From: Bacteroidales bacterium
GTDB taxonomy: Bacteria; Bacteroidota; Bacteroidia; Bacteroidales; F082
Direction: 5' to 3'
Length of the DNA: 64,000 nucleotides
NCBI GenBank assembly: GCA_017477425.1
Contig: JAFUVT010000002.1
Span: 62,001 to 126,000 of the forward strand
This document shows positions 19,719 through 62,711 of the stretch, piece after piece. How positions within the stretch are numbered: position 1 is the stretch's first letter; each line of letters starts with the position of its first letter. A program made the translations under genes and the position numbers. Under the pieces are notes generated by a model. The model saw only the letters and a program-made list of their open reading frames with translations, was not told the origin of the DNA and ran no database searches.

Positions 19719-21107
19719 TCACTTATGCACCTTTCTAACGAACTCCTCCACCTCAGGCACGCCGCCTTGGTAGACGAGGTAGCCGTTGTAAGGTTCGCGC
19801 GGGGTGATTTCGCTGTTGACGGGAGTGAGCATGATGTTCTTCACTTCCTCGCGGTCGTGGGTCTGGCCCAAGGCCCAGCCGAGCTTGATGTAGGCGGTCT
19901 CGGCGAGCATGTTCTGCGCGGGAATGATGCCACGGTTCATCAGGTCGCGGCCGGTGTCGTAAACGAACATGTGGGCGTAGCCCCAGATGGTCTGCACGGT
20001 CATGTATTGGTGCACGCCTTTCTCGGTGGCGCGCTCAATGGCGTCGAACATGCCACGGTTGACGTGACCAAGTCCTGTGCCGTCCCAAACGATGCCTTGA
20101 TAGCCGTTATCGACCAGTGCGTCAAGCACATCGGGCTTCATGCCGGGATAGTAATAAAGGATGGCCACGCGGTCGTCGAAGGTCGGGATGATCTTCACAT
20201 CGCGGTCGGCGCGACGGTGGTTATAGACCTCCTTGATCGGCACCACGCCACGCTTGCGGTCAACGGTGGCCACAGGCGTGTCGCCAATGGTGCGGAAGGT
20301 GGAACGATAGGATGAGTGCATCTTGCGCACGCGGGTACCACGATGCAGAAAACCATATTCATCCGAGGTGGGACCGAACATACAGACCATCACCTCGGCC
20401 ACATCGCCGTGACCAGCAGCGGTCATAGCGTGCATGAGGTTGAGGGCGGCATCGGACGACGGACGGTCGGATGAACGCTGCGAGCCCACCAACACGACAG
20501 GCACGGGCAGGTTTTGGCACATGAAAGTTAAGGCGGCGGCAGTGTGGGCCAGCGTGTCGGTGCCGTGACCGATGACGATGCCATCGATGCCGTTCTGGAT
20601 TTCCTCGCCGATCTTCTTGGCCAAAGCCACATACTCTTTGGGTGACATGTTCTCGGAGAACACGGCAAAAACCTTCTCGGTTTCGAGGTTGCAGATGTCG
20701 GCCAGCTCCGGCACAGCACCGTACAGCTCCCCCGGCGAGAAGGCCGGAATGACAGCGCCCGTACGGTAGTCCAAACGCGAGGCGATGGTGCCACCCGTGC
20801 CGAGCAGTTTCACATGCGGAAGTCCTTCAGTGTAAGGGAATTCCTTCTCGGGAATGTGGTAGTTGGCTTTCTTATAGTCGGTCTCGACCATGCTGGTGAT
20901 GGTGCTGATATCGACACCGATGTTGTAGCCCGTGTTGACTTTCATCACGATGTGCTGGTCGTCCTGGAAGGCGGCGCGAGGCAAAATCGTGCCTTTGAAG
21001 AGTCCGCCAGTGGTTTGGCATTCAGCCTGGCTCCACACGCGGCAATTGTATTTCTTGAGCACCTCAAGGGCGGCTCCATTATATCCTTGGAAAAAATCTT
21101 CAGCCAT
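19719..21107 (-). CDS. gatD: Glutamyl-tRNA(Gln) amidotransferase subunit D (archaeal type)
   Basis: This 462-residue protein has the GatD layout: an N-terminal SH3-like/AnsA-type domain (about 1-90, with GLFKGTILPRAAFQDDQHIV), then an L-asparaginase-type amidase domain. Asparaginase motifs are present: LGTGGTIASR (103-107 region, nucleophilic Thr) and IGHGTDTLAHTAAAL (Thr/Asp pair at about 183-184), with VGSQRSSDRPSSDAALNL after. GatD frees ammonia from glutamine (or asparagine) and passes it to GatE for converting Glu-tRNA(Gln) to Gln-tRNA(Gln). A plain asparaginase would be about 330 residues and lack the N-terminal domain. It lies 8 bp after gatE, in the same orientation. This pair is described as archaeal; finding it in a Bacteroidales context is unusual. 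Confidence 0.9.
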   Translation of the reverse strand: MAEDFFQGYNGAALEVLKKYNCRVWSQAECQTTGGLFKGTILPRAAFQDDQHIVMKVNTGYNIGVDISTITSMVETDYKKANYHIPEKEFPYTEGLPHVKLLGTGGTIASRLDYRTGAVIPAFSPGELYGAVPELADICNLETEKVFAVFSENMSPKEYVALAKKIGEEIQNGIDGIVIGHGTDTLAHTAAALTFMCQNLPVPVVLVGSQRSSDRPSSDAALNLMHAMTAAGHGDVAEVMVCMFGPTSDEYGFLHRGTRVRKMHSSYRSTFRTIGDTPVATVDRKRGVVPIKEVYNHRRADRDVKIIPTFDDRVAILYYYPGMKPDVLDALVDNGYQGIVWDGTGLGHVNRGMFDAIERATEKGVHQYMTVQTIWGYAHMFVYDTGRDLMNRGIIPAQNMLAETAYIKLGWALGQTHDREEVKNIMLTPVNSEITPREPYNGYLVYQGGVPEVEEFVRKVHK

Positions 21108-21115
21108 GTTCTTCG

Positions 21116-23062
21116 TTATTTGATGTTGTTAGCCAATTCTTTCATTTCGATGTTGCCCATCGCTTCTTTCATCTGACCCATGATCCAGTTCTGGCGGTCG
21201 AGGTCGCTGCACTTTTTCTTCTTCGCGACGAAGCCGGCGCAGAGGTTGTCGAGCTTGGTCAGCAGGTCGTCCTTGGCGAAACGTTTGAAGCCAATCTTTT
21301 CCAAGACTTGCTCCATTGGCATTGAGGCGTCTTCGACCAACGTGGGTGCCATGTTCCAAGCCAGACGGTAATCCAGACCTTGTTCCTTCAGGAAGGCGAA
21401 GAGTTTGCAAAGCGTCTCGTCATTGAACTTCGATTCGGGGTTCTTGCCCAGCAAATGCTTCAGCCTCATGCCGACAAAGCGACCGAGGGTGCGACCGTCC
21501 AAGCCGAGTTTCTCGACGATTTCGGCCATGATGGGGAACCAGTTCTTCGAGAAGATGTACGTGAAGCAATCCTGCGGCACATTCCACTCTGAGAGTTTGT
21601 AGTAGCGGTCGATGATTTCCGAGGGCAGTTCGGCTTTCATGGCCTTGATGAAGGCGGGGTCGAGCGGGATGGGAGCCGAGTCGGTGTCGGGATACATACG
21701 GTCGGCACCGGGCAGCACGCGCTCGAAGATGGTGATGCCGTTCGAGATGGCCTTGCGGGTCTCTTTCGGCACGCCGTCCCAAGCCATGAGGCAACGCTCT
21801 TCGATGGTCTCGATGGCCGTAGGCATGTCGTTTTGCGGACCCCAAATGAGGATGAGGGCATCCTCGTCGGTGGCGTGGATGCGCTTGCGCAACTTATGCC
21901 ATTGCGAGTCGGAAAGCACGGGTTCCAGCATCTCGTCGTGGAGCATGTTGGGACGCTCAAGGCAGGCGATGACCTTCAGGCGGTCGGCGATTTCGTCGGC
22001 GAACATCTTGCCGGGTTGGGTGAAGTGCGACAGCACGCCACGGAACTTCGGCAACTTGACGAGCTTCAAGGCGCCACCTTGGGCCTTGTTGTCGAGGATA
22101 GGCATATAGTCGGTCGGGAAATGCACGTCGATGACTTCCACCTTCCAGCCTTCCTTGCTCACCTCGCGGTTGAGACGTTCTTGCAGTTGCACGAGCGACC
22201 ACTGGCGGAAGCACTCGTTATGCGACAATTCGGGAATCCACTTGATGTGTTGCACACCCTTCAACTCGATGCGGGTGCCGCCTTTGCAGCTCACGTTCAC
22301 ATCTTGGCGGCCTGCGCCCATACCCGTGCGCACCAAGCCCGTCGAGCGGCCGAGGAAACGGATGTATTCGCCCGTCTCTTTCAGTTCGTCGGGGTTCTTG
22401 CAGTCGGGGTAGGTGACGGTCTCGATCAACGGCACGCCGAGGCGGTCGGTCTGATAGATGCGGCGGTGGCCGATGTCGCTGATTTCGCGGCAGGCGTCCT
22501 CTTCAATACTCAGCTGGATGAGGCGGATGTCCTTCTTGGGCAGCTTTAGCAGGCCTTCCACGCCCACGATGGCGGTGCGTTGGAAGCCCGTCGGGATGGA
22601 GCCATCAAGGTATTGCTTACGGGTGATGTGCACCTCGCCCACGATGTTCAGGTTGGAACGCAGGGCGATGACGATGGCGTTGTGCAAGGCCTCGCGGTTG
22701 ATGGGGAACGGCGGGGTGTCGTCCACATCGTAGGTGCAGGCGGTGCCGTTCTTGATGCGATAGACGATTTCTTTCTTCGTCTTGAACTCCATCAAGGCGG
22801 TGCCGTCGTACTCGCCCAATTCCGAAAGGGTGGGGCGCATGTGGCGGATCAGCTCGGCGTCGTAGTCCTCAAACTTGTTGAATTGTCCGGCGGGACAGTG
22901 GCAGAACAGCTTCTCTTTGGTCTTGATTTGCTGGTGCACTTCGAGTCCCGACATGAAGCCTATGCGGTCATAGTCTTCCTGAGTGGCTTTCTTGCGCTCA
23001 ACGTAGCCGGCCTGTTGCTTGGTCAGCTCGTAGTTGGCGCGGGGGTCAAAGTTCGTGCTCAT
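21116..23062 (-). CDS. gatE: Glutamyl-tRNA(Gln) amidotransferase subunit E (archaeal type)
   Basis: The 648-residue protein begins with the GatB/GatE kinase-amidase cradle (GFMSGLEVHQQIKTKEKLF at about 34-52, matching the IGLEVHxQL signature, and later ISDIGHRRIYQTDRLGVPLIE and GAGRQDVNVSC). About residues 285-430 are an insert like the GAD domain of bacterial AspRS (GALKLVKLPKFRG, LSDSQWHKLRKRI, ATDEDALILIWG), which is specific to GatE and absent from GatB. The C-terminal helical YqeY-like tail (about 500-648) recognises tRNA. The length agrees with archaeal GatE (about 620-650) and exceeds GatB (about 475). It phosphorylates Glu-tRNA(Gln) and transfers ammonia supplied by GatD, encoded 8 bp downstream. 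Confidence 0.92.
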   Translation of the reverse strand: MSTNFDPRANYELTKQQAGYVERKKATQEDYDRIGFMSGLEVHQQIKTKEKLFCHCPAGQFNKFEDYDAELIRHMRPTLSELGEYDGTALMEFKTKKEIVYRIKNGTACTYDVDDTPPFPINREALHNAIVIALRSNLNIVGEVHITRKQYLDGSIPTGFQRTAIVGVEGLLKLPKKDIRLIQLSIEEDACREISDIGHRRIYQTDRLGVPLIETVTYPDCKNPDELKETGEYIRFLGRSTGLVRTGMGAGRQDVNVSCKGGTRIELKGVQHIKWIPELSHNECFRQWSLVQLQERLNREVSKEGWKVEVIDVHFPTDYMPILDNKAQGGALKLVKLPKFRGVLSHFTQPGKMFADEIADRLKVIACLERPNMLHDEMLEPVLSDSQWHKLRKRIHATDEDALILIWGPQNDMPTAIETIEERCLMAWDGVPKETRKAISNGITIFERVLPGADRMYPDTDSAPIPLDPAFIKAMKAELPSEIIDRYYKLSEWNVPQDCFTYIFSKNWFPIMAEIVEKLGLDGRTLGRFVGMRLKHLLGKNPESKFNDETLCKLFAFLKEQGLDYRLAWNMAPTLVEDASMPMEQVLEKIGFKRFAKDDLLTKLDNLCAGFVAKKKKCSDLDRQNWIMGQMKEAMGNIEMKELANNIK

Positions 23063-61709: not shown

Positions 61710-62711
61710 TTAATTGTTTTCGTTAGGTAGAGACGCAAAATTTTGCGTCTCTACAGGGTCGTCTGTTTCGTGGTGTCTTTTATATGCATTAATAATGTCC
61801 GTCACCAGTTTGTGGCGCACCACGTCCTTGTCGTCCAAATAGATGAATTCGATGCCGCGCACGTCTTTCAAAACCTCCATCGCTTGGGGCAGGCCCGAAG
61901 GCGTTTTGGGCGGCAGGTCGATTTGGGTGATGTCGCCGGTGACGATGAACTTGGCCGAGCGTCCCATGCGGGTGAGGAACATCTTCAGTTGGCTGCGCGT
62001 GGCGTTTTGGGCCTCATCGAGGATGACGAAAGCGTGATCTAAAGTGCGGCCGCGCATGAAGGCCAAAGGCGCAATCTCGATGGTGTGGTCTTCGAGATAG
62101 CTGTCCAATTTGGCCGATGGAATCATGTCGCGCAAGGCGTCGTAAAGCGGTTGCAGATACGGGTCGAGTTTGTCTTTCAGGTCGCCAGGGAGGAAGCCCA
62201 GATGTTCGTCAGCTTCGACGGCGGGACGGGTCAAGATGATTCTTCTTACCTGCTTGGCTTTCAAGGCGCGGACGGCCAAGGCAACGGCGGTATAGGTCTT
62301 TCCCGTTCCGGCAGGGCCGATGGCGAATACCAGGTCCTTTTGCTCAGATGCCGTCACCATGCGCTTTTGGTTGGCGGTGATGGCCTTCACTGGCACGCCG
62401 CTACGCCCAAAGACCAACACGTCGCTTTCCGACATCTTTTGTTGCAACTCGCTGTCGGTGCTGGCCATCATGATATCCTCGACGGTTTGCGCTGTCAGTT
62501 TCCCGAAACGTTCGAGCTGTACCATCAGGGTCTCATAACGATTGGTGAAATATTCAATCTCCTCGTCATCGCCAACCACCTTCACGAAATCGCCTCGCGC
62601 GATGAGCTTCAGCTTAGGAAACATGCTCTTCACGAGTTCCAAATACTTGTCGTTGGGACCGTGAAGCTCTTTGGGATCAACATTTTCAATCTGTAGAATC
62701 TGCTCTGCCAT
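61710..62711 (-). CDS. phoH: PhoH family ATPase
   Basis: This 333-residue P-loop ATPase shows Walker [16 protein letters not shown] (about 131-145), [17 protein letters not shown], Walker [12 protein letters not shown] and the arginine-rich [16 protein letters not shown] region. The function is not settled; the family is linked to RNA metabolism and phosphate response. The C-terminal 13 residues or so ([13 protein letters not shown]) are encoded by the palindrome at 61727-61754 and sequence after it, so the native end has been replaced by repeat sequence. Confidence 0.9.
61727..61754. repeat. Perfect 28-bp palindrome of the GTAGAGACG family (3' end of phoH)
   Basis: It is the same 28 bp as at 25929-25956 (GTAGAGACGCAAAA and its reverse complement). 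It is translated as the last residues of PhoH and lies 29 bp before the purC start codon. Confidence 0.9.

Follow-up and report, generated by a model that had tools for sequence, protein, structure and literature searches.

GatDE, the amidotransferase to which we assign a gene pair from a Bacteroidales bacterium in this report, has been described from archaea, with the enzymes of P. abyssi (1zq1) and M. thermautotrophicus (2d6f) as structural representatives. In the usual histories of the genetic code, it figures as the archaeal system of cells that lack a glutaminyl-tRNA synthetase (GlnRS). The initial annotation of the DNA examined here likewise treated GatDE as archaeal, and two reviews agree with it in the passages concerned, one stating that GatDE is now found only in archaea (PMC9499178) and the other assigning it only to archaea (PMC8007984). 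According to a passage in the former, archaeal GatDE reads the D-loop and the A1:U72 pair of tRNA-Gln (PMC9499178). A second relative is bacterial GatCAB, whose GatB subunit shares its cradle fold with GatE. Like the pair described here, the GatCAB of Deinococcus, Thermus and Bdellovibrio coexists with GlnRS and asparaginyl-tRNA synthetase (AsnRS), according to a passage in the report on these organisms (PMC4206432). A survey of 366 genomes gives GlnRS without gatCAB for 12 of 14 Bacteroidetes and takes this GlnRS to be functional; its search, as stated there, was for GlnRS, glutamyl-tRNA synthetase (GluRS) and gatCAB, and GatDE is not named in that statement (PMC3927822). In searches of open-access papers we recognised no report of GatDE in Bacteroidota; public annotation may already name the genes. 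The pair lies in a 64,000-nucleotide stretch of DNA, hereafter the window, which spans positions 62,001 to 126,000 of contig JAFUVT010000002.1 (assembly GCA_017477425.1; GTDB lineage Bacteroidales, F082).

The window holds an intact and selected GatDE heterodimer, an equivalog-level homologue of archaeal GatDE, which is kept beside GlnRS in many Bacteroidales; we consider it moderately probable that it serves as an auxiliary Glu-tRNA(Gln) amidotransferase. A bacterial clade that carries GatDE together with GlnRS, and has lost the former between close relatives, amounts to a natural experiment on keeping or dropping indirect aminoacylation, and it raises the question of why Bacteroidales keep both.

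Two subunits of archaeal type

The two genes are open reading frames on the same strand, 8 bp apart in the list of such frames: gatE (positions 21116 to 23062 of the window, minus strand, as are all domains given below) encodes the 648-residue GatE subunit of a Glu-tRNA(Gln) amidotransferase, and gatD (19719 to 21107) the 462-residue glutaminase/asparaginase-like subunit GatD. The initial annotation had recognised an adjacent pair of archaeal-type architecture, and its view is borne out by both subunits. GatE passes the equivalog level of TIGR00134 (gatE_arch) with 380 bits against a cut-off of 319.55, while in a second GatE model, PRK04028, its 439.7 bits fall narrowly below the cut-off of 456. 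GatD reaches 497 bits against TIGR02153 (gatD_arch), well beyond the equivalog cut-off of 324. The closest structures in the PDB by sequence are in each case the archaeal subunits, namely 1zq1_C (1e-83) and 2d6f_C (5.4e-82) for GatE and 1zq1_A (3.4e-114) and 2d6f_A (1.1e-103) for GatD. Archaeal GatDE is therefore the nearest described system by sequence and, as set out below, by fold, sharing with the window pair both subunits, the order of domains, the equivalog-level scores and the catalytic positions.

The domains of GatE are supported to differing degrees by its own profile scores. The GatB/GatE cradle (residues 38-472; 21647 to 22951) matches PF02934 (GatB_N) with 153 bits, over the cut-off. 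The GAD insert (residues 327-411; 21830 to 22084) scores 19.1 bits, below the Pfam cut-off of 23.4, and the helical, YqeY-like tail (approximately residues 484-648; 21119 to 21613) scores 12.6 bits (E 0.13) against a cut-off of 27, so that this tail has no Pfam match at E <= 0.1. In an alignment of 27 GatE proteins that contains the one from the window, GAD is matched in 20 at E <= 1 (best E 9.3e-6) and GatB_Yqey in 10 (best E 6.4e-6), and the phmmer alignment with P. abyssi GatE covers residues 30-630, including the tail. The predicted structure agrees with this assignment. Its mean predicted local distance difference test score (pLDDT) is 75, with 99 residues below 50, mostly in the cradle; the tail is nearly all helical, in blocks of pLDDT 77-95, and the best fold matches in the PDB are the GatE chains of 2d6f (E 3.0e-27) and 1zq1 (2.4e-26), at a root-mean-square deviation of about 8 Å. 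On the evidence of family and fold, GatE has both the GAD insert and the YqeY-like tail that the initial annotation had read from the letters; what did not hold at the level of the protein's own Pfam scores, which lie below cut-off, holds for the family alignment and the fold. Neither is the protein a GatB-like one devoid of GAD, an option that the same annotation had entertained: GatB models give at most 113.4 bits on it, far below their cut-offs, and GAD is present in the family as described.

GatD was said to join an N-terminal domain to an asparaginase domain with GTGGT and HGTDT motifs, and all of these were located. The GatD_N domain (residues 34-70; 20898 to 21008) scores 42.3 bits against PF18195, with a cut-off of 25.7; the asparaginase-type amidase (residues 99-426; 19830 to 20813) matches PF00710 and PF17763, both over cut-off; and the motifs start at residues 103 (GTGGT) and 181 (HGTDT). 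Thr107, Thr183, Asp184 and Lys262 align with T101, T177, D178 and K254 of M. thermautotrophicus GatD, positions that we take to be catalytic. Like type I asparaginases, the protein matches asnASE_I (residues 96-435; 368 bits, cut-off 260.5), but it differs from them in the additional GatD_N domain and in co-occurring with GatE. Lower-scoring matches in the same genomes, which we took for plain asparaginases, fall below the GatD cut-off.

Conservation of GatE was scored over 131 Bacteroidota rows. Bacteroidales supplied 93 of these, out of 127 carriers; another 29 lie outside the class, and the remaining nine are named loci, some of which may duplicate other rows. Conservation reaches 97% or more in 151 columns, of which 89 show the same residue in P. 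abyssi and in M. thermautotrophicus. His43, Glu187 and Glu214 belong to the columns that satisfy both descriptions; we presume them to be equivalent to H15, E157 and E184, which form the metal/kinase site in GatE from M. thermautotrophicus. The ratio of nonsynonymous to synonymous substitution rates (dN/dS), in six comparisons selected from the clade to which the window belongs, lies between 0.065 and 0.170 for gatE and between 0.020 and 0.045 for gatD. These low values indicate that both subunits are under purifying selection, with GatE, and its tail above all, evolving faster than GatD.

Distribution and descent in Bacteroidota

The genome searches covered Bacteroidota, plus 14 control genomes, and drew on an even sample of 295 Bacteroidales and a separate phylum-wide sample of 395. 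Of the Bacteroidales, 122 carry GatE over cut-off, rising to 127 at E < 1e-30 with the inclusion of five partial matches below it, and 130 carry GatD over cut-off. The two subunits travel together: both occur in 126 of the genomes, neither in 164 and one alone in five. GatE alone was seen in G184 only, whose gatE stretch carries a 102-residue piece of gatD, and GatD alone in G012, G046, G187 and G236. In the phylum-wide sample, GatE at E <= 1e-40 was present in 30 genomes, comprising this genome and 29 labelled as same phylum, none of them labelled as same class. The named relatives (80 kept of 263) include many metagenome-assembled genomes (MAGs) of rumen Bacteroidales as well as Lentimicrobium, Marinifilum and Draconibacterium. 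The impression conveyed by the initial annotation, that GatDE is exceptional in such a genome, must accordingly be given up for Bacteroidales, given 127 carriers among 295 and the family clades described below.

This distribution bears on whether the pair reached the bacterium from archaea only recently or is an artefact of assembly, in either case without a lasting role there, an explanation that is refuted as stated and that we regard as exceedingly improbable. It would be in keeping with the restriction of GatDE to archaea in the passages of the two reviews (PMC9499178, PMC8007984) and with the patchiness of the window's genus, in which G201 carries both subunits and G101 and G286 carry neither. 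It is opposed by the many carriers among Bacteroidales, by purifying selection on gatE and gatD, and by identities to the window GatE of approximately 53-61% in other Bacteroidales families against 36% for a haloarchaeal (Natrinema) gene; outside the class identity is 41-53%, with G450 at 57%. The surroundings of the pair also recur in contigs of named relatives. An upstream cluster of ATP-binding cassette (ABC) transporter genes is found in 20 of 44 related named loci, and downstream a gene for a 519-residue carboxylase recurs in 22 and one for a 138-residue protein in 18, the last two having been equated with the window's own genes by eye. Recurrence of this kind speaks against a chimeric assembly at gatE-gatD, which had been raised at the outset as a possible undoing of the reading.

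With archaea represented by three sequences, a branch with support of 100 in a 128-row FastTree of GatE divides them from Bacteroidota, and another with support of 100 has Bacteroidales together with G450 on one side. Of the 33 families represented by two or more rows, 25 form single clades; the window's own family was scored as broken, an outcome probably due to relatives from its clade that stand in the tree without a family label. A 26-row tree rooted on GatB likewise unites the three archaea (100/99) and 16 of 17 Bacteroidota (99/97), with G647 branching apart under a long-branch warning. Tree distances of GatD and GatE correlate (r 0.64, 14 genomes, a value reached in 0 of 5000 permutations). 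The distances of GatE and GluRS do so too in a set of 21 genomes (r 0.39, reached in 7 of 5000). When each of 15 families is represented by a single genome, the latter correlation is r 0.32, which 444 of 5000 permutations reach, and GatE and GluRS have 8 of 18 splits in common; on account of this weakness, vertical descent is supported within families and not at depth. The data fit a history in which families inherited the pair vertically and lost it many times. Behind this may lie either an old transfer from archaea or a bacterial lineage that never lost the pair, as the initial annotation suggested, the comparison having covered three archaeal sequences. The initial annotation had set against itself the case that GatDE is common and vertically inherited in Bacteroidales, and of this the first half stands, the second within families.

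G450, labelled as lying outside the class, carries a Bacteroidales-type GatDE (L293), and transfer within the phylum is the likely explanation. On a Natrinema plasmid, a gatE-like stretch (L234, 3001-4445) is matched as two separate pieces, carries no gene annotation and is perhaps a decayed copy. Six GatE peptide patterns, a test that reaches close relatives only, had no match in viral contigs. Some Bacteroidales also encode a GatB-like protein of approximately 480 residues (L364-L369); five of the six source genomes carry GatE in addition, the exception being G077.

Coexistence with GlnRS and the putative role of the pair

This genome, which is 99.55% complete, holds one bacterial GluRS and one GlnRS, together with AsnRS, aspartyl-tRNA synthetase (AspRS) and lysyl-tRNA synthetase (LysRS), all over equivalog cut-offs, along with one match to glutamine synthetase (PF00120). 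The genome has no amidase-family PF01425 match for GatA and no second GatB, its sole GatB_N match being this gatE, so that the matter of glnS, gatA and gatB, left by the initial annotation to the full genome, is settled in these terms. In contrast to GatCAB, then, the window system has an asparaginase-type GatD as its ammonia-making subunit, is accompanied by neither GatA nor another GatB, and is far below the cut-offs of GatB models. The initial annotation implied that GatDE is the cell's route to Gln-tRNA; this is unsupported, with glnS present and a discriminating-type Arg in gltX, and GatDE is not the only such route in this genome. That GatDE replaces a missing GlnRS is rejected by the presence of glnS and by the lack of association across the 295 genomes, where a GlnRS match at E < 1e-100 occurs in 114 of 127 GatE carriers and in 154 of 168 non-carriers (p 0.68). 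Carriers without a strong GlnRS match being no commoner (13 of 127 vs 14 of 168), GatDE seems not to free cells from GlnRS. The presence of AsnRS rules out a lack of this enzyme compensated by GatDE-made Asn-tRNA, and the one PF00120 match rules out a lack of glutamine synthetase.

One could suppose that GatDE and a functionally relaxed, non-discriminating GluRS form a full second pathway to Gln-tRNA in parallel with GlnRS. We think this unlikely. The genome does encode what such a pathway would consist of, a single GluRS and a single amidotransferase, and the residue by which the GluRS would be judged is no universal switch: Arg358 is described as discriminating-type, yet mutating it had no effect of this kind on GluRS1 of H. 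pylori, according to a passage in the survey cited above (PMC3927822). GluRS was compared in 44 rows, left from 50 genomes searched after 45 passed the cut-off and the partial G083 was dropped. The Arg358-equivalent (T. thermophilus numbering), placed by hand count on the alignment for 42 rows and by eye for two re-extracted ones, is R in all 44, which comprise 23 carriers and 21 non-carriers. This speaks against a gltX of the non-discriminating type, as far as a sequence signature can tell, and thereby against the second pathway. Nor does any GluRS column clearly track GatE, a point against the second pathway, and neither are carriers without a strong GlnRS match in excess. On the gltX open frame itself, a tRNA-Cys gene (L002, 2628-2699) lies within the upstream extension, so that the first ATG is probably not the start.

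The substrate tRNA departs from the archaeal pattern as well. Two Gln-tRNA genes were found in this genome, with anticodons CUG and UUG. From 116 model matches in 44 genomes, 71 were read and G474 was dropped (its anticodon is not Gln), leaving 70 tRNA-Gln genes from 43 genomes; the 45 unread matches scored at most 64.2 bits and may hold a few more. U1-A72 is found in all 70, the two from this genome among them, and A73 in 62, irrespective of the presence of GatE. Carriers and non-carriers being alike in the genes read, a special tRNA-Gln served by GatDE is unsupported. The A73 that prevails in Bacteroidales (L294-L363, L062, with a few from outside the class) is not the G73 listed for bacteria. 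Set against archaeal GatDE, the window system thus coexists with GlnRS and with a bacterial GluRS that has the Arg358-equivalent, in a host whose tRNA-Gln has U1-A72 rather than A1:U72. GatDE is, by these three features, kept without its archaeal setting.

A setting so altered leaves no obvious archaeal-type substrate, and it could be argued that GatDE has been repurposed for another acceptor, such as misacylated Asp-tRNA(Asn), or for a substrate other than tRNA. The contrast of a fast-evolving GatE tail with a nearly frozen catalytic part would suit such a change. We nevertheless judge repurposing to be improbable, a shade more so than the second pathway, given that AsnRS is present over its cut-off and that the architecture of GatE is retained, tail included. 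Furthermore, no neighbour common to several families points to another pathway, with gene names compared by eye only; the gene clusters that several families have in common were likewise judged by eye, not profile-tested, and appear unrelated to tRNA charging.

Most likely, GatDE still acts on Glu-tRNA(Gln) as an amidotransferase that depends on glutamine. GatD would split glutamine (or asparagine) and yield ammonia, and GatE would use ATP to activate glutamate on misacylated Glu-tRNA(Gln) and amidate it to Gln-tRNA(Gln). In the presence of GlnRS and of a GluRS that looks discriminating, the role is probably auxiliary. Its activity, its substrate and its corrective role are what we infer here: GatDE may correct Glu-tRNA(Gln) that stems from GluRS error, or from a shortage of glutamine in which uncharged tRNA-Gln builds up. 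We tentatively suggest that Bacteroidota GatDE performs a "proofreading by amidation" beside GlnRS, its reading of the tRNA having shifted from A1:U72 to U1-A72. If true, tRNA-dependent amidotransferases would have a third use, distinct both from serving as the only route to Gln-tRNA and from amino-acid biosynthesis.

Several observations weigh against the auxiliary amidotransferase that we favour. The GatE tail is weakly conserved, with G629 the only position past residue 464 at 97%. No partner that an indirect route would need was found, there being no second GluRS in this genome. Co-evolution of GluRS with GatDE is rejected: the best column in the comparison of carriers with non-carriers has an uncorrected p of 0.0027 among thousands of comparisons, in a test for which two of the 44 rows (G175, G218) were wrongly extracted. 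The state of GatE changes 13 times on the 44-row GluRS tree, in which rows of mixed families stand, and a pair so often lost or gained is dispensable. Finally, tRNA-Gln without the archaeal A1:U72 means that a change must have taken place in GatE, either in how it recognises the tRNA or in what it acts on.

Gene order at gatE-gatD and glnS

The interval between the two genes varies among relatives. In L074, L080, L082, L088 and L107, one or two genes whose products bear a type IX secretion sorting tail stand between gatE and gatD, and these five relatives make the interval look like a place of repeated insertion. In L087 (6001-9303), from a MAG of red deer, gatE and gatD form a single open frame of 1100 codons, which is either a natural fusion or the result of a lost stop codon. 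On contig C78 of G039, the glnS match ends approximately 200 bp before the gatE match. A tRNA-Gln gene lies near glnS on the same contig in G241, G146, G032, G129 and G098.

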